This document shows positions 1,593 through 8,064 of a stretch of DNA of 64,000 bases, piece by piece. The DNA is from Bauldia litoralis. GTDB lineage: Bacteria > Pseudomonadota > Alphaproteobacteria > Rhizobiales > Kaistiaceae. The stretch lies in NCBI GenBank assembly GCA_945882315.1, contig CAMCWB010000010.1:1-64000 (forward strand). The letters are read 5' to 3'. A program made the translations under genes and the position numbers. The notes beneath the pieces were generated by a model. It saw nothing but the letters and a program-made list of their open reading frames with translations. It ran no database searches and had not been told where the DNA came from. The first letter of the stretch is position 1; each line of letters starts with the position of its first letter.

Positions 1593-3812
1593 ATGCTCAA
1601 CTGGCGGAGATGGATTCGTCCGGGCCTGGTCATGACCGGGCTTTTGGCCGTTTTCGCTGTCTTTCTGCGATCCGGCGCTGTCGAGGAGGACCTGATCGCG
1701 CGTGCGTTGCAGCACCTCGCGGCCGACGGCCAGAACTGGGCAACGGTCGACGTCTCCGGCCGCACCGTGACGGTTCATGGCACCGCTCCTTCGACGGAGG
1801 CGCAAGAGGCCGCCATCGAATCCGCCGCGGACGTTGCCGGGGTCAGCCGCGTCTCCGATGCGAGCGACCTTCTGCCGATCGCGTCTCCCTATTTCTGGTC
1901 CGTGCGGAAGGCCGGATCAGTCCTGACGCTCGTCGGCTTCGTTCCGTCTGAAGGGTTCCGGACGTCGCTCCTTGCCGCCGCGCGGCGCGCCATGCCGGCC
2001 GCCGAGATCCATGACCAGTTGCAACTCGCACGCGGTGCGCCGGCTTCCTTCAACGGCGGCACTTCCTTCGTGCTCGACCGTCTCAAAACGCTCGCCGACG
2101 CTACCGTGACGATGACCGACGCGACGCTTGCCGTGTCGGGAGTCGCCGCAGACCCGGCCGCCTTCGCCGCATCGCGCAATATCTTCCGCGTCGATGTGCC
2201 GGCCCAGTTGACGCTCGGTCCGATCGACATTCTTCCACCGCGTGCCGATCCCTTCGTGTGGTCGGCGAGCTATGACGGTTCGCGCGTGACGCTCGCCGGC
2301 TACGCACCGAACGAGATCATCGAGGACTCGCTTCTGTCTACGGCCCGCCGCGCGCTGCCCGGTGCGACTGTCGTCGACGACATGAACGTCGCCTCCGGCG
2401 CCCCGGACGGCTTCGCCGATGCCGCGGCTTTCGCCATCGGCGCGCTGACGCGATTCGAGAATGGCGGCGTTGCCCTCGACGGCATGAATCTCGACATCAG
2501 CGGCACCGCGAAGACGGTCGACGATTATGAATCCGTCGAAGCCGCCTTCGCCGGCGCTCTGCCGCGCGGCATGCGCGTCGTGTCGAGCGCCATCGCACCG
2601 GCAACGGTTGCCTCCTATGGCTGGCGCGGGGAGAGGGCCGCCGACGGAACCGTAACGCTCGTCGGCTATGTTCCGACACCGGAAGCCAAGCGAGATCTTG
2701 CCGGGCTCGCCAAGGAGCTTTTTGTCGGAAGCAGCGTCACCGACAATGTGCGCATCGCCGCCGGCGAGCCGCGGATCGACTGGATCGGTGCGATAAAGTT
2801 CTCGATGAGCCAACTGGCCCGCCTTGGCCGCGGCTCGGTGGTTCTTGGTGAGCGCCAGTTCTCGATCGAAGGCGAGGCGGCGAGCCCGCAGGCCTATACC
2901 GATATGCTCCGCGCCAATGCCCAGACGCTGCCGTCCAATCTCGAGCTCGAAAGCGCCGATGTTACACCGCCGCGTGTCTCTCCCTTCCGCTTCGTCGCGT
3001 CGCGAAAGCCGGATGCGGTCACGCTCGACGGCTACGTCTCATCCGAAGATGAGCACGAGTCGATCGTATCTGAGGTCAAGAGCAAATTCGGCGGCGTCAG
3101 GCTGGTCGACAATCTGATTTTTGCGAGCGGCGCCCCGGACGGCTTTCGCGATGCGGCGACCGTCGCCGTCGCCGCGGTGAGCCGCCTGGCGGGAGGGCAT
3201 TCCGAAATCAGTGACGGCACGATCAATATCGCCGGCAACGCCTATCACGCCGGCGCGGCGGGCGCCGTCGTCGACGAGATCGGCGAAGCGATGCCGGGCG
3301 GCTTCGATGTCGCGGTGTCGATCATGGTCCGGCAACCGGCGCAGCCGGTGACGCCGCTCCGCTGCCGCGACCTGCTGCAGAAGGTCCTGACCGTCGGCCG
3401 CATCGAGTTCGACGGCGGCAAGGCGGATGTTTCCGAGGACAGTTTTGGAATTCTGGATCGTGTCGCCGCGACGATCGAACGGTGCCCTGACGCTATGGTG
3501 GAAGTCGGTGCGCACACCGATGCGGATGGCTCGACGCAGGGCAACCTCAACCTGTCGCAGGAACGCGCCGACGCGATTGTCGAATTCCTCGTCGATGCGG
3601 GCATCAGGCGGGAGCGGCTGACGGCGGTCGGCTATGGCGAGGCGAAGCCGATCCGCGACAATGACTCGCCGGAAGGAAAAGCCGCCAATCGAAGGATCGA
3701 ATTCGCGCTGACCGCCGCCGAAGCGGTAGGATCGACGGCGGAATCGGCTTCGGAGGCGACCGGGATCGAGGAAGAAAACGCAGAAACCGACGAAGAGGCG
3801 GGCGGCCGGTAA
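1593..3812 (+). CDS. membrane-anchored tandem-BON / OmpA-C domain protein (Rv0899/ArfA-like layout)
   Basis: A 739-residue envelope protein. A hydrophobic segment near residues 10-26 follows a basic start, so it is either an uncleaved inner-membrane anchor or a signal sequence. The middle holds four tandem units of about 120 residues, starting near residues 97, 219, 340 and 463. Each unit has a DG-x-VTL-x-GYVP-type strand, then an ASGAPDGF-type motif and a BON-like fold. Residues of roughly 590-710 form an OmpA C-terminal peptidoglycan-binding domain with the motifs GAHTDADGS, LSQERADAIVEFL and GYGEAKP. An acidic tail of about 25 residues follows. It likely spans from the inner membrane to peptidoglycan. 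It is first in a three-gene operon; the next start codon is 1 base after its stop. Confidence 0.88.
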   Translation: MLNWRRWIRPGLVMTGLLAVFAVFLRSGAVEEDLIARALQHLAADGQNWATVDVSGRTVTVHGTAPSTEAQEAAIESAADVAGVSRVSDASDLLPIASPYFWSVRKAGSVLTLVGFVPSEGFRTSLLAAARRAMPAAEIHDQLQLARGAPASFNGGTSFVLDRLKTLADATVTMTDATLAVSGVAADPAAFAASRNIFRVDVPAQLTLGPIDILPPRADPFVWSASYDGSRVTLAGYAPNEIIEDSLLSTARRALPGATVVDDMNVASGAPDGFADAAAFAIGALTRFENGGVALDGMNLDISGTAKTVDDYESVEAAFAGALPRGMRVVSSAIAPATVASYGWRGERAADGTVTLVGYVPTPEAKRDLAGLAKELFVGSSVTDNVRIAAGEPRIDWIGAIKFSMSQLARLGRGSVVLGERQFSIEGEAASPQAYTDMLRANAQTLPSNLELESADVTPPRVSPFRFVASRKPDAVTLDGYVSSEDEHESIVSEVKSKFGGVRLVDNLIFASGAPDGFRDAATVAVAAVSRLAGGHSEISDGTINIAGNAYHAGAAGAVVDEIGEAMPGGFDVAVSIMVRQPAQPVTPLRCRDLLQKVLTVGRIEFDGGKADVSEDSFGILDRVAATIERCPDAMVEVGAHTDADGSTQGNLNLSQERADAIVEFLVDAGIRRERLTAVGYGEAKPIRDNDSPEGKAANRRIEFALTAAEAVGSTAESASEATGIEEENAETDEEAGGR

Positions 3813-3813
3813 G

Positions 3814-3954
3814 ATGCTATATGTGATTTTTGCATATTGGCCCTATCTGGTGGCGGTACTTCTCCTCGGCATGGCCGTTGGCTGGTGGTATCAGGATCCC
3901 CGCAGCGCCGATGACGAGACGGCCTGGCTCGAACGCGGATTCGACGAACCGTGA
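3814..3954 (+). CDS. 46-aa single-helix membrane protein
   Basis: A short ORF of 46 residues: a hydrophobic helix over about residues 4-27 (YWPYLVAVLLLGMAVGWWY) and an acidic soluble tail rich in D and E. It starts 1 base after the stop of the BON-OmpA gene, and its TGA overlaps the GTG of the next gene by 4 bases (GTGA at 3951-3954). This close coupling on both sides is strong evidence that it is translated. It resembles the small middle gene (arfB) of the mycobacterial Rv0899 operon in size, position and topology; sequence homology was not tested. Function unknown; a membrane adaptor is an inference. Confidence 0.78.
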   Translation: MLYVIFAYWPYLVAVLLLGMAVGWWYQDPRSADDETAWLERGFDEP

Positions 3955-4694
3955 TCTGGCACTTCCTCGAGGTCTGGCTTTTCTTCGTGCTCGCCTTTGC
4001 CTTGGGCTGCACACTCGGCGCCTATCTCTATGGCGGTCTTGCACGGAGCCCGCTCGCCGCCGCGCAGGGCTACGTCGCCGACAAGGTTGGCGATGCGATC
4101 GACGAGATCAAGACGCGGCTAGGCATCGGCCCCGATTGGCGTCCGGTGCTTCAGCCGGCGATCGAACGCCCCTCGCCAAAATCCGCGCGGCCGCCGGAGC
4201 CGGTCGAAGTCGAGCCGCCGCCGATTGCGCTTGCGCCGCCGTCCTGGAGCGGCGACGCACCGCGTGACGGCGACGCCTGGGACGACGATCATGCCTGGAC
4301 GGACGAGCCGGCAGACAAGCCGGTCGACACTGCCTATGCCGCGGAATTGAAAGCGGCTGCCGCCGAAAGTATTGCCGGACCTGCCGACGACGACAGCATG
4401 ATGCGTCCCGCCGGCCTGTCGTCGCCGCGTTCGGGTGTACCCGACAATCTGCAGAGAATCCGCGGTATCGGCCGGCGCAACGAGGAACTGCTGCACGGTC
4501 TCGGCATCTTTCACTTTGGCCAGATCGCCGCCTGGACGCCGGCCGAGGTCAGGTGGATCGCGGTGCATCTCAAATTCCCCGAGCGGATCGAGCGCGACGA
4601 CTGGATCAGCCAGGCGACCGTGCTCGCCAGCGGCGGCGCACCCTCGCAGGAGAAAGAGCGCCGCCGGAAGGCCGACGCCGACGAGTATGGCTAG
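3951..4694 (+). CDS. membrane-anchored helix-hairpin-helix protein
   Basis: A 247-residue protein starting with GTG that overlaps the upstream stop. Residues 5-30 form one membrane helix. Residues 65-100 are a Pro/Ala/Glu-rich linker, followed by an acidic stretch. Residues of about 160-225 form a helix-hairpin-helix domain of the flap-endonuclease-like or 41-kDa-complex-I-associated type: PDNLQRIRGIGRRNEELLHG, then IFHFGQIAAWTPAEV and a DDWISQA helix. Such domains bind DNA or proteins; no nuclease active site is visible. It is the last gene of the operon. The tail is highly charged. The family is often annotated only as hypothetical. Confidence 0.75.
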   Translation: MIWHFLEVWLFFVLAFALGCTLGAYLYGGLARSPLAAAQGYVADKVGDAIDEIKTRLGIGPDWRPVLQPAIERPSPKSARPPEPVEVEPPPIALAPPSWSGDAPRDGDAWDDDHAWTDEPADKPVDTAYAAELKAAAAESIAGPADDDSMMRPAGLSSPRSGVPDNLQRIRGIGRRNEELLHGLGIFHFGQIAAWTPAEVRWIAVHLKFPERIERDDWISQATVLASGGAPSQEKERRRKADADEYG

Positions 4695-4715: not shown

Positions 4716-5684
4716 CTATCCCGCATCGAGGTCGAACACGGGCGGCTGACGCGGAACGACGGCGTCCGCGGGCGGACCTGATCCCTCGATCCCGGAAATG
4801 AATGCCGAAATCCGGTTGAGCAGATTGGCTCCTGCCAGGATGGGCGGATGTCCTTCGCCCGGCACCGTCAGCGATTCGAGAAGCTGGTGTTCCGCGGCCA
4901 TCGCCGCCACGGTCGCCGTGGACAGGAGATCCGAATTGCCGCCCCGGATCGAAAGCACCGGCACGGACTTCAAAGCCCGGAATTCGTTCCACAGATTGGG
5001 CAGCGGCTCGTCGAACTCGATGCTGTCGAGCGTCCGCGCGAGGGCAGGGTCATAGTCGGGCACGGGCCGCCCGTCCTCTTCGCGATAGGTCGTCCGGGCG
5101 AAGGCCATCCACTGCTCTTCGTTCAGCGACGTGAAATGGCCGCCATGCAGCCGCTTGAGGATGCGCACCGCATCTGCCCAGTCATCGGGCAGCGGCGTCC
5201 GGCCGACATAGGTCTTGATGCGGGCGAGGCCGACGGCCTCCAGCGTCGGGCCGATATCGTTCAGCACGAGGCCGGCGAGCACCGAAGGCCGGACGACGCC
5301 CATCAGCATGCCGAGGATGCCACCGCGCGAGGTGCCGACGATGACGGCGCGGCTGACGCCCAACGCCGCCATGCCGTCGAAGACATCGTTAATCTCGGTC
5401 AGCGGATTGTAATTCTCCGTCCGCCGGTCCCGGTCGGACTTGCCGCGGCCGCGATAGTCGAAGCAGAGCACGCGCCGCGGCCGGTGCCGATGCGTCGAGA
5501 GATAACGGGCCAACTCGTGGAAATCGCGATGGCTGCGGCTCAGTCCCGGCAGGCAGACCACCGGAAGCCACGGATCCTGCGGGTTGCCGAAGTCGCGGAT
5601 GAAGAGCGACAGCCCATCCGAGCTTCGGTAGGTGGTATCCCGATATCCTGGGATCGGCGCGTCTTTACCGTCGGCCGGGCTCAT
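4716..5684 (-). CDS. alpha/beta hydrolase
   Basis: A 322-residue cytoplasmic alpha/beta-hydrolase-fold protein. The nucleophile elbow is GTSRGG with Ser119, the FDYRGRGKSD motif lies at 75-84, and an oxyanion-side PGLSRSHRDF lies near 46-55. The candidate catalytic His is in GEGHPPIL close to the C-terminus. No signal peptide is present. The substrate cannot be told from sequence; esterase or lactonase-type chemistry is typical. It is downstream of the lytic transglycosylase gene on the same strand with a gap of 34 bases, so the two may be co-transcribed. Confidence 0.85.
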   Translation of the reverse strand: MSPADGKDAPIPGYRDTTYRSSDGLSLFIRDFGNPQDPWLPVVCLPGLSRSHRDFHELARYLSTHRHRPRRVLCFDYRGRGKSDRDRRTENYNPLTEINDVFDGMAALGVSRAVIVGTSRGGILGMLMGVVRPSVLAGLVLNDIGPTLEAVGLARIKTYVGRTPLPDDWADAVRILKRLHGGHFTSLNEEQWMAFARTTYREEDGRPVPDYDPALARTLDSIEFDEPLPNLWNEFRALKSVPVLSIRGGNSDLLSTATVAAMAAEHQLLESLTVPGEGHPPILAGANLLNRISAFISGIEGSGPPADAVVPRQPPVFDLDAG

Positions 5685-5718: not shown

Positions 5719-8064
5719 CTAGCCGCCGCGCTTCAGGTCTTTTTCGATGGTCAATGCAGGCGAGCCAAGGCGCGCCTCGTACACCTGCACATTTTCCATG
5801 ATGCGCTGGACGTAATTGCGCGTCTCGGTGAACGGGATCGACTCGATCCAGTTGACGACGTCGACCTTCGGATCGCGCGGATCTCCATAGAGACGGATCC
5901 ACTCGGTTACGCGTGACGGACCGGCGTTGTAGGCGGCGAAGGTCATCACATAGGAGCCGTTGTAGCGGTCGATGAGATGGCCGAGGAACGCCGCACCGAG
6001 CGTCGCGTTGTAGCCGGGATCGCTGGTGAGCCTCGCCTGCGAGTAGGAAACGCCAGCCTTCTTTGCCATCTGCTTGGCGGTTGCCGGCATAAGCTGCAGC
6101 AGCCCGCGGGCGCCAGCCTTGCTGATCGCGCCCGGGTGAAACGAGCTTTCCTGGCGCGCGATGGCATAGACCACGGCACGGTCGACGGAGCCGGTATTCG
6201 CCGATTTCGGGATGGCCGAGGTCGGGAAGGCGAGGCTATCGACGCGAATGCCGCGCGACGCCGCTGTCTTGCCGAGTTGCAGGGCCAGCGTGTGATCGTC
6301 CTTGACCATGCCGGTCAGGAGCGCCAACTGCGTCGGATCGGTCAGCGTGTCGGCGAGGTAGCGCATGAAGATCGTGTTGCGATCGTCGTATTTGATGTCC
6401 GTCAGGCGCTGCATCACCTGGACGAGTTCAAGGCTGGCAAAACGTTTCTTGTCCGAAGCATCCGGCTTGGGCGGCGCCGCGATCGGTAGCGATTTCACCC
6501 CAAGTTTGGCGAGCGCCAACTGGCCGTAGAAAGTCGTCGGATAGGCGGCGGCGAGTTGGTATTGCCGTCCGGCTTCGCCGCGATTGCCCGCGGCCTCGGC
6601 GGCGCGCCCGAGCCAGTATTCGGCACGCGACTGGCTGAGCGGCATCTTGGAGATGGTCTGGATCACCGCGAAATGCCGGGCGGCTGCCTTCGGATCGTTG
6701 AGATATTCGAGCGCCAGCCAGCCGGCATGGAATTCCGCCTCAGCGCGTTGGCTGCTCGACTCGGCCGCGTGGGCCGCGGCGATGCGATAGGCGTTGCGAT
6801 AGTCTTTCAGCTCGAAGAGCTCGCGCGTCATCACGCGCCGTTCCACCCACCAGGCATCCGGGTCGACGAGCAGGTCGCCGTCGCGCGGCGCCGAAAGCAT
6901 CAGCTCGGCCGCCGCCGTGATCTTTTCGGCACGGCGGAGTTGCTGGATGCGGGCATAAGTGTAGAGGGGATCCTTGCGCACCGCCTTCGGCACGCCGTCG
7001 AGCGCCGCTCCGGCCTTCGGATCGCGCTTGATCACCGCGATCACCGCCTTTGCAAGAGCCTGCTGGTTGGCATCGAGCGAGGCAGCGGCCCGCAGCGCAC
7101 GGGTCGACTGCTCTTCGTAGAGCATCCGGTCCATGCGGGCTTTGTGGTCAGCTTTGGAGAGGACGCCCCCGAAATCCTTGCGGATCGTGGCCTCGAATGA
7201 ATCGTCCAGCGTTTCGGTCCGCCATTTCGGGCGAAGCAGAGCGGCGGCGGCCGCCTTCTGGCCGGTCGCCAGATAGGAGCGGGCGAGAAGCAGCGTGCCG
7301 TCATTGCTGACGGGTTCGCGCCCGCCGAAGGCCTGAATGACGGCCTCGGCGCCCGGCTTCTCACGCTCGATCGCTTCTTCGAAGCGGGTGCGCAGCAGCG
7401 TCTGGCCGGGCCAGTCGGAAAGGTCGCGCGCAATCTGGTCGAGCTTCGACGACGCCACGAATTGCGACTTGTAGACCGCGACCAGCCATTTGATGATCTT
7501 GGCGTCGACCGGATCGGGCAGCGCATAGGCCGCCAGAAGCGCGTCATTGGGATTGTCGGTATCGAAGAGGCGTACGGCAAGCTTGAAGCCCGCCTCGGAG
7601 AGTATCGAACGCTGGGTCGAGACGATCGTCGGCGGCGCCGCGGGAGCGATGGCCGATGCGGTCTGGATGGGCGGCGCGACGGGCGCGGCCAGAGGCACCG
7701 GCGCCGCGATGGGCGCCTGAACCGCCGCCGGCGCTTCATTGGCGTAGGACAGCGGATCGAAAGAGCCGCCGATCAGCGCCGTGATGGAATCGGGCGTAGC
7801 GGCGGTCTGGGCGAGCCAGGGATTCGGACGCGGCAGCGGGACGGCTTCAGCCGCAAGCGGGCCGGCCAGCGGACCGACGAGCACCGACAAGGCGAGGGCG
7901 GAGATGCCGGCGCGCCGCGCCAGGCTGCGTGCTCCGCTCGAATTCCCCTGATCAGCCCGGGGATTAGCTCCCCGATCGGCTTGTCCCCCGATGCCTCGGA
8001 ATTTCCGCAATGGTCTGGCCCTTCTGTCGGATCGCGCCCTAGACGCGAGACCGTATAATGTCAT
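5719..8064 (-). CDS. soluble lytic murein transglycosylase (Slt70-like)
   Basis: A 781-residue periplasmic enzyme that cleaves peptidoglycan between MurNAc and GlcNAc to give anhydro ends. The C-terminal third is a GH23 SLT domain with catalytic Glu639 in ARQESSFHPGAISKAGARG, then the LLQLMPATAKQ and YNATLGAAFLGHL motifs and the YNAGPSRV/ETRNYV region. The middle is an alpha-helical superhelix like the Slt70 U-domain. The first 55 residues are odd: a basic stretch precedes the hydrophobic signal segment (GISALALSVLVGPLAG), so the real start may lie further in than the ATG at 8064, but no better ATG is seen. It is divergent from dapA. Confidence 0.9.
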   Translation of the reverse strand: MTLYGLASRARSDRRARPLRKFRGIGGQADRGANPRADQGNSSGARSLARRAGISALALSVLVGPLAGPLAAEAVPLPRPNPWLAQTAATPDSITALIGGSFDPLSYANEAPAAVQAPIAAPVPLAAPVAPPIQTASAIAPAAPPTIVSTQRSILSEAGFKLAVRLFDTDNPNDALLAAYALPDPVDAKIIKWLVAVYKSQFVASSKLDQIARDLSDWPGQTLLRTRFEEAIEREKPGAEAVIQAFGGREPVSNDGTLLLARSYLATGQKAAAAALLRPKWRTETLDDSFEATIRKDFGGVLSKADHKARMDRMLYEEQSTRALRAAASLDANQQALAKAVIAVIKRDPKAGAALDGVPKAVRKDPLYTYARIQQLRRAEKITAAAELMLSAPRDGDLLVDPDAWWVERRVMTRELFELKDYRNAYRIAAAHAAESSSQRAEAEFHAGWLALEYLNDPKAAARHFAVIQTISKMPLSQSRAEYWLGRAAEAAGNRGEAGRQYQLAAAYPTTFYGQLALAKLGVKSLPIAAPPKPDASDKKRFASLELVQVMQRLTDIKYDDRNTIFMRYLADTLTDPTQLALLTGMVKDDHTLALQLGKTAASRGIRVDSLAFPTSAIPKSANTGSVDRAVVYAIARQESSFHPGAISKAGARGLLQLMPATAKQMAKKAGVSYSQARLTSDPGYNATLGAAFLGHLIDRYNGSYVMTFAAYNAGPSRVTEWIRLYGDPRDPKVDVVNWIESIPFTETRNYVQRIMENVQVYEARLGSPALTIEKDLKRGG

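Follow-up and report, generated by a model that had tools for sequence, protein, structure and literature searches.

A predicted arfABC-like envelope operon of Bauldia litoralis whose third protein carries a helix-hairpin-helix domain

The first 64,000 nucleotides of contig CAMCWB010000010.1 from Bauldia litoralis (assembly GCA_945882315.1), referred to here as the window, contain a three-gene operon at positions 1593–4694. Judged from its sequence, the locus is an arfABC-like operon in which the third protein ends in a helix-hairpin-helix (HHH) domain. We designate the genes A, B and C; their features are as follows.

1593–3812, + strand: gene A, 739 amino acids; inner-membrane helix, BON array and OmpA-like domain, ArfA/OmpATb-like (Pfam, NCBIfam, AlphaFold, Foldseek)
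1605–1724, + strand: N-terminal helix of A, residues 5–44, with a predicted membrane span (AlphaFold model; predicted local distance difference test, pLDDT, 52–63 for residues 1–30)
1743–1859, + strand: half BON unit of A, residues 51–89 (model, Pfam, unit comparison)
1881–2240, + strand: double-BON unit 1 of A (model, unit comparison)
2241–2606, + strand: double-BON unit 2 of A, the best ArfA_OmpATb_N match, 46.2 bits alone (NCBIfam, unit comparison)
2607–2969, + strand: double-BON unit 3 of A (model, unit comparison)
2970–3338, + strand: double-BON unit 4 of A (model, unit comparison)
3354–3716, + strand: OmpA-like domain of A, residues 588–708 (Pfam, fold comparison)
3814–3954, + strand: gene B, a single-helix protein of 46 amino acids with the motif G19xxxG23-W24, counterpart of ArfB (profile searches, comparison of non-synonymous with synonymous differences, profile comparison)
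3951–4694, + strand: gene C, 247 amino acids; GxxxG membrane helix, flexible linker and HHH domain; counterpart of ArfC, HHH variant
4437–4634, + strand: HHH domain of C, residues 163–228 (NCBIfam tail matches, alignment, fold comparison)

Results

The operon resembles mycobacterial arfABC

A single base separates the stop of A (3812) from the start of B (3814), and the GTG start of C at 3951 overlaps the end of B, whose stop ends at 3954, by four bases. A preliminary description made from the DNA letters had claimed this coupling, together with four BON-like units of about 120 residues and an OmpA end in A, a single-helix second protein, a helix-linker-HHH third protein, and an analogy to the Rv0899 operon. 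The coordinates were confirmed. The remaining readings were borne out by Pfam, NCBIfam and AlphaFold for A (which added an unlisted N-terminal half unit); by the one hydrophobic helix of B; by alignment, model and NCBIfam tail matches for C; and, for the analogy, by the ArfA model, the layout and gene names of the mycobacteria-like loci described below, and the top Foldseek match of A. A search for sigma-70 promoters at the operon found none, and a terminator search returned one weak site inside C, below the number given by shuffles.

The operon shares with arfABC (Rv0899–Rv0901; NCBIfam NF051434, NF051435 and NF051433/NF051455) the order of BON-OmpA protein, small helix protein and helix-linker-domain protein, and both contain the double-BON unit and the OmpA fold. 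A displays the architecture of ArfA/OmpATb, namely an N-terminal membrane helix, double-BON unit and OmpA-like C-terminal domain. Against NF051434 it reached 135.3 bits summed over five stretches (cut-off 81), with a best single unit of 46.2 bits; single units of A from mycobacteria-like loci scored 143.8–152.2 bits. By these scores, A appears to pass the ArfA cut-off through the summing of its repeats alone. Two differences stand out. arfABC contains one double-BON unit, whereas A contains four and a half, and C lacks the sunset domain of NF051433 and has an HHH domain in its place.

The ArfA model was searched over the phylum of G061, an ‘Actinomycetes bacterium’ genome, and 5 of 396 genomes scored above the cut-off (loci L133–L137). 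In all five, A is followed by a helix protein of 37–51 amino acids and then by a helix-linker protein. NCBIfam names the second gene ArfB and the third ArfC, sunset domain variant, in both loci that were scanned (L133 and L134); because of these curated models we term the five loci mycobacteria-like. The tail of the third protein is thus a sunset domain in mycobacteria-like genomes (2/2 scanned) and an HHH domain in the window operon. A search with the ArfA model across the window's own class yielded 5 of 385 genomes at E <= 1e-10 and none above the cut-off, a result that says little about spread because just four other genomes of the same order are in that listing.

Window B and C fall below the cut-offs of the corresponding models: B gave no match to ArfB (NF051435, 40 bits) and C none to the ArfC N-terminal model (NF051455, 32 bits). 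Among 25 B members the ArfB model produced two weak matches (best E 0.011), and an unrelated model, TrgA, matched 4 of the 25 as weakly. In profile comparisons, the Hyphomicrobiales B profile aligned to ArfB at 84.5% (P 6.9e-6; 0/150 permutations) and the C helix profile to the ArfC helix at 46% (0/150 permutations). In cross comparisons, 1 of 150 permutations did better than the C helix against ArfB, and none did better than B against the ArfC helix. Helices align easily, so these alignments are support, not proof.

A is an array of BON units that ends in an OmpA-like domain

A matched Pfam OmpA at 6.4e-21, Pfam BON at 7.4e-19 over three stretches, and NCBIfam ArfA_OmpATb_N at 1.1e-39 over five. 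An AlphaFold model computed with A and seven relatives as input (mean pLDDT 85.2, predicted template modelling score 0.57) places the ends of the full units at residues 214, 335, 458 and 579, followed by the OmpA domain; the acidic C-terminal end is of low confidence. Each full unit is modelled as strand-strand-helix-strand plus helix-strand-strand-helix-strand, a total of six strands and three helices. The part of review PMC6151718 that we consulted counts the same number in the central domain of Rv0899. The four full units are 22–34% identical in pairwise comparisons.

Rv0899 (2L26) was the top Foldseek match of the model in the PDB (E 3.7e-11, 252 columns, root-mean-square deviation (rmsd) 19.1). 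The dual-BON proteins DolP and OsmY have periplasmic BON folds like those of A and lack the OmpA domain; OsmY aligned to residues 29–214 of the model with a Z of 11.5 and an rmsd of 8.9. In the OmpA-like domain, H641, D643, N651 and R658 were invariant in all eight aligned proteins, and we take their role to be that of their counterparts in other OmpA-like domains.

Unit number varies. Of 48 A proteins scored with a unit profile that was started from window A and iterated on Hyphomicrobiales loci, 31 showed four full units, eight showed three and three showed five; seven units occurred in two proteins, two in two, one in one and none in one. The same profile gave split or single matches on the five mycobacteria-like A proteins and none to two units on 37 A-like proteins of another actinobacterial class.

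B is a small protein under selection

B consists of one hydrophobic helix and was matched at E <= 0.1 in 37 of 61 Hyphomicrobiales genomes. In unaligned codon-by-codon counts that covered the first 45 or 36 codons, the proportion of non-synonymous differences (pN) was below that of synonymous differences (pS) in 64 of 64 pairs, 36 from nine related genomes and 28 from eight others related to one another. Mean proportions were 0.23 versus 0.61 and 0.21 versus 0.52 (pN/pS 0.38 and 0.41), ratios that are approximate because synonymous sites are near saturation. The pattern was reversed in the other two frames of the region. Of 42 B helices, 40 contain GxxxG, against a shuffling expectation of 8.9, and 36 contain a G...[GAS]W motif; the N-extended B of L116 was omitted from this count. 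On this sequence evidence, B appears to be a real small protein under purifying selection.

C tethers an HHH domain through a flexible linker

Alignment and model agree that C comprises a helix, a disordered linker and an HHH region. GxxxG was found in 41 of 43 C helices (6.8 expected from shuffling). Eight aligned C proteins contain 46 invariant positions within residues 151–228 and none within residues 74–150; the hairpin G-I-G (G172, I173, G174) is invariant in all eight and is followed in every one of them by a basic residue at one or both of the next two positions. No Pfam family reached its cut-off on C (IMS_HHH, 0.039). The HHH domain is homologous to the tails of four curated NCBIfam models, those of NuoE (1.2e-27), L21 (3.1e-15), S2 (1.1e-13) and phasin PhaH (1.9e-12). 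C matched these models in their tails alone and, as expected, fell below their whole-protein cut-offs.

Fold comparison of C found no chain at Z >= 5 among 178 aligned. The best matches were to SAM domains, and HhH domains of DNA polymerases and RAD51 matched weakly; comparison of a predicted structure in this range does not appear to separate DNA-binding from protein-binding relatives.

The helices of B and C are related and can be fused

The B profile matched the C helix profile at 96% in hhalign, and 0 of 150 column permutations was as good. B therefore looks like a stand-alone relative of the anchor of C. The C helix profile omitted L085, L086, L088, L089 and L091, whose starts were chosen by script and are doubtful, as well as L113. 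Three loci (L113, L140 and L219 of Rhizobium lusitanum) contain B fused to C with an extra middle helix between them. In L140 the fusion open reading frame (ORF) ends at the edge of the stretch, ahead of any tail. The L219 fusion is 379 amino acids long and comprises a B helix, middle helix, C helix and two HHH domains; it lies at 6485–7624 on a 2.4-Mb replicon. In the one plasmid record inspected for ArfB/ArfC annotation, nothing was annotated at that spot. The extra helix means that B and C would stay parallel in such fusions.

Among 42 B proteins, 36 have more lysine and arginine after the helix than before it, as do 35 of 41 C proteins (L112, L113, L116 and L127 omitted), which suggests that the C-terminus lies inside and the HHH domain in the cytoplasm.

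The gene order is conserved in Hyphomicrobiales

Of the 61 genomes that we searched, the window's own included, 28 belong to the same family and 33 are others of the order; L003–L009 duplicate genomes of the same family and were counted once. The BON part of A was matched in 27 of 28 same-family genomes and 21 of 33 others. Nine of the 12 same-order genomes without such a match showed the OmpA part alone, and three (G029, G036, G058) had A matches too weak for listing of the matched part. A, B and C occurred together in 27 of 28 same-family genomes. The preliminary description had named a small protein under purifying selection and genes adjacent in many genomes as support, and an unconserved ORF or genes separated in most relatives as grounds for refutation; the ORF proved to be under selection, and the genes are together in most relatives. 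G007, a same-family genome that is 92% complete, has an A match in the OmpA part alone and no HHH match.

We fetched loci from all 27 family genomes and from 19 of the 21 order-level genomes (21 loci; G040 and G056 left out) and located the genes by profile searches. An HHH ORF was present in 27 of 27 family loci. B passed the filter in 25 of these, and direct searches found it at adjacent coordinates in G021 and G025. The 21 order-level loci contain an HHH ORF in 18; 17 have a separate B, L116 has an N-extended one and L113 has one that is fused to C. At a contig end in another genome (L131, G052:C70), a B-like match adjoins an HHH match, with no A in the fetched stretch.

HHH proteins recur beside BON-OmpA genes in actinobacteria

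In the class of G061, the ArfA model matched 51 of 395 genomes at E <= 0.001 and none above the cut-off. We fetched 36 of these 51 genomes, which yielded 40 loci. An OmpA-type A was present in 37, and an HHH ORF lay directly behind it in 15 of the 37. The gaps were -4 to 2 bases in 11 of the 15 and 48–69 bases in three, which had weaker HHH scores; one had an overlapping start choice. The C proteins of L172 and L176 begin with a B-like helix motif. When the hydropathy of some of these loci was listed, no separate B was seen; no dedicated search for it was made. This recurrence indicates that the combination of BON-OmpA and a membrane-tethered HHH protein is not peculiar to rhizobia. In L148, in which the HHH ORF is directly in front of A, and in L169 (13–915) and L173 (104–784), an HHH protein without a strong membrane helix precedes the BON-OmpA gene; the upstream proteins of L169 and L173 contain two HHH domains each.

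HHH and sunset domains end similar host proteins

Outside the operon, the window genome (G000) has an HHH match solely on ribosomal protein S2. G006 has one further match, on a protein read as S2 from its sequence; G045 carries HHH on NuoE, L21 and S2, and G047 on NuoE, L21 and a third protein. In the host protein of L209, the scan matched the tail part alone. HHH matches are present in 11 of the 12 genomes of the order in which the BON part of A was not matched, and on that finding the idea that ArfC is a hub for all HHH tails was dropped.

NCBIfam sunset variants cover L17, L4, S2 and L20 as well as ArfC; the sunset-tailed S2 is known as a model and none was seen in a genome. G284 has sunset domains on ATP synthase gamma and L22, and its C-like protein is cut by the contig end inside a sunset-like stretch. 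Sunset matches occurred without HHH in G284 and G751, and with one weak HHH match (4.2e-4) in G593; HHH occurred without sunset in G304 and G392. In G000 and G006, Arf and S2 end in HHH, and sunset domains occur elsewhere, one of them on a protein read as a nuclease. In this small sample, HHH and sunset tend to exclude each other within genomes. The window genome has two sunset matches away from the operon (C28 and C150; G000:C150:3317–3463), and L190 (952–1656) of this genome is read as a secreted nuclease with a sunset tail. In each mycobacteria-like genome the second sunset copy (L193–L197) ends a protein with repeats that we take to be LGFP-like.

A profile search of the PDB with the sunset domain led to ribosomal protein L4 (3.6e-16), and a relationship to the Ada DNA-repair domain was dropped; Ada was absent from the 14 sequences returned up to E 10. 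The search located a sunset match within the extension of C. acnes uL4, which the consulted part of PMC10085706 describes as solvent exposed and without density.

A described protein close to C is protein-O of the Dinoroseobacter shibae RC-LH1 complex (8YY9 chain O), which has an N-terminal membrane part, a long flexible loop and a homologous HHH domain (E 3.2e-19). It differs from C in that its membrane part is a helix-turn-helix pair and its gene lies between nuoE and nuoF. The section of PMC12079452 that we consulted mentions no BON-OmpA partner, reports that protein-O was traced solely from residue 8 to 59, and calls the functions of protein-O and of related domains unknown or obscure.

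Neighbouring genes

Two genes that recur beside the operon lie downstream of it on the opposite strand.

4716–5684, - strand: 322 amino acids, read as an alpha/beta hydrolase from its sequence
5719–8064, - strand: 781 amino acids, read as a soluble lytic transglycosylase from its sequence

A match to one or both was found in 34 of 46 loci (L083–L128) despite short flanks. In L112 the hydrolase-like gene is on the strand of A, and in L092–L097 and L100 (genus g9) the transglycosylase-like gene alone was matched within the flank. A recurrent neighbour that acts on the cell wall would fit a peptidoglycan role of the operon. Upstream of the operon are a tRNA-Ser (gct) at 1070–1162 on the - strand and, at the start of the window, a reading frame read as transposase-like.

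Discussion

We consider it reasonably probable that the operon encodes an arfABC-like envelope complex in which A extends from the inner membrane to the peptidoglycan, the helices of B and C are paired, and a cytoplasmic HHH adaptor links the cell wall to the cell interior. We infer the single complex, the binding of A to peptidoglycan and the recruitment of a partner by the HHH domain. A would be anchored in the inner membrane through its N-terminal helix, span the periplasm as nine BON-type folds and hold peptidoglycan with its OmpA-like end, as domain content and modelled folds suggest; a link of this kind had been claimed earlier and agrees with the domain content of A. The GxxxG helices of B and C would pack side by side with their C-termini inside and most likely also pack against the helix of A. 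The HHH adaptor on the flexible cytoplasmic linker of C would recognise a cytoplasmic partner and, by doing so, connect the cell wall with the cell interior. This partner is probably general, not complex-specific, because the same domain forms tails of S2, L21 and NuoE. In mycobacteria-like genomes, sunset would take the place of HHH on the third protein.

Several observations weigh against this model. The whole-chain rmsd of 19.1 indicates that the domain arrangement of A differs from that of Rv0899. Lysine and arginine around the helix of A, counted with a crude helix segmentation, were more frequent after it than before it in 18 of 38 proteins and less frequent in eight; this is the wrong sign for an N-terminus inside. 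The HHH model of C is weak (pLDDT about 59–67; best Z 4.5, to SAM domains). Among the loci, the helix and HHH domain of C are in different frames in L094, A occurs without B or an HHH ORF in L112 and L127, and L123 has B and no HHH ORF. In L130 (G055:C3) a B-like match lies beside HHH without A in the fetched stretch. HHH tails do not need this operon, given their presence in 11 of 12 genomes without a BON-part match.

A broader idea, which we offer as speculation and would not expect to hold, is that HHH and sunset, though unrelated, are functionally interchangeable as cytoplasmic address tails. Depending on the lineage, one or the other would be fitted to the same kinds of host, and Arf would be one docking site in a cell-wide system that keeps ribosomes and respiratory complexes close to the envelope. 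The host kinds would be the third Arf protein, ribosomal proteins and energy-converting complexes, exemplified by S2 (HHH version and sunset model), by NuoE and protein-O with HHH, and by ATP synthase gamma with sunset.

Other readings of the operon seem unlikely to us. The HHH domain could bind DNA, so that the operon would hold the nucleoid at the inner membrane and the cell wall. The invariant G-I-G hairpin with its nearby basic residue and the weak fold similarity to DNA polymerase and RAD51 HhH domains agree with this, but protein-binding SAM domains match equally well or better (Z <= 4.5, an uninformative range), and ribosomal proteins and NuoE make an odd set of DNA tethers.

It is quite unlikely that the operon instead serves adaptation to acid as a channel or by releasing ammonia, the role proposed for Rv0899, with the BON array and small proteins forming or gating a pore. 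The three-gene layout is common to both operons. However, the accounts of Rv0899 that we consulted in part describe a non-barrel protein with a controversial porin function, a role in porin activity or ammonia release being disputed, and nothing transporter-like was seen in A, B or C, the wider neighbours not having been searched for nitrogen genes.

We give little credence to the view that neither tail, HHH or sunset, has a dedicated partner and that both are mobile decorations which repeated fusion events have spread. Tails that are unresolved in the structures of protein-O and C. acnes uL4, as far as the consulted parts of those reports go, and a repertoire that varies among genomes of one order would be expected of decorations; the 46 invariant positions of the C tail, set against none in the linker, and the occupation of the same place by an unrelated domain in another lineage would not. 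That B, lying between A and C, serves as a leader or couples their translation and yields a functionless peptide is very hard to credit, for all its shortness, one-base gap and four-base overlap, in view of protein-level selection, the conserved GxxxG-W, in-frame fusion to C in three loci and the ArfB-named counterpart in both scanned mycobacteria-like genomes.

Two features of the operon have precedents. A membrane-placed HHH domain, which the preliminary description had taken to be undescribed, is found in protein-O of the D. shibae reaction centre. An Rv0899 family in nitrogen-fixing bacteria is the subject of Marassi 2011, to judge from its title as cited in PMC3816664, and A fits the kind of protein which that title names. 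Searches of open-licence literature, outside of which most subscription journals fall, found no report that joins the BON domain with helix-hairpin-helix, nothing relevant on the ‘sunset domain’, and none on HHH, L21 or NuoE C-terminal extensions in alphaproteobacteria. Comparison across genomes adds what could not be seen from the window itself: as read from sequence, a tail that depends on lineage, related B and C helices that can be fused, and actinobacterial HHH proteins beside BON-OmpA.

A second lineage with the whole three-gene layout, which includes cultured Bauldia, offers another place to test the disputed function of Rv0899. The comparison separates the constant parts, BON-OmpA and paired small-residue helices, from the part that differs, the cytoplasmic tail. 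Should two small domains indeed occupy equivalent positions on similar hosts, the function of each tail would become open to experiment.

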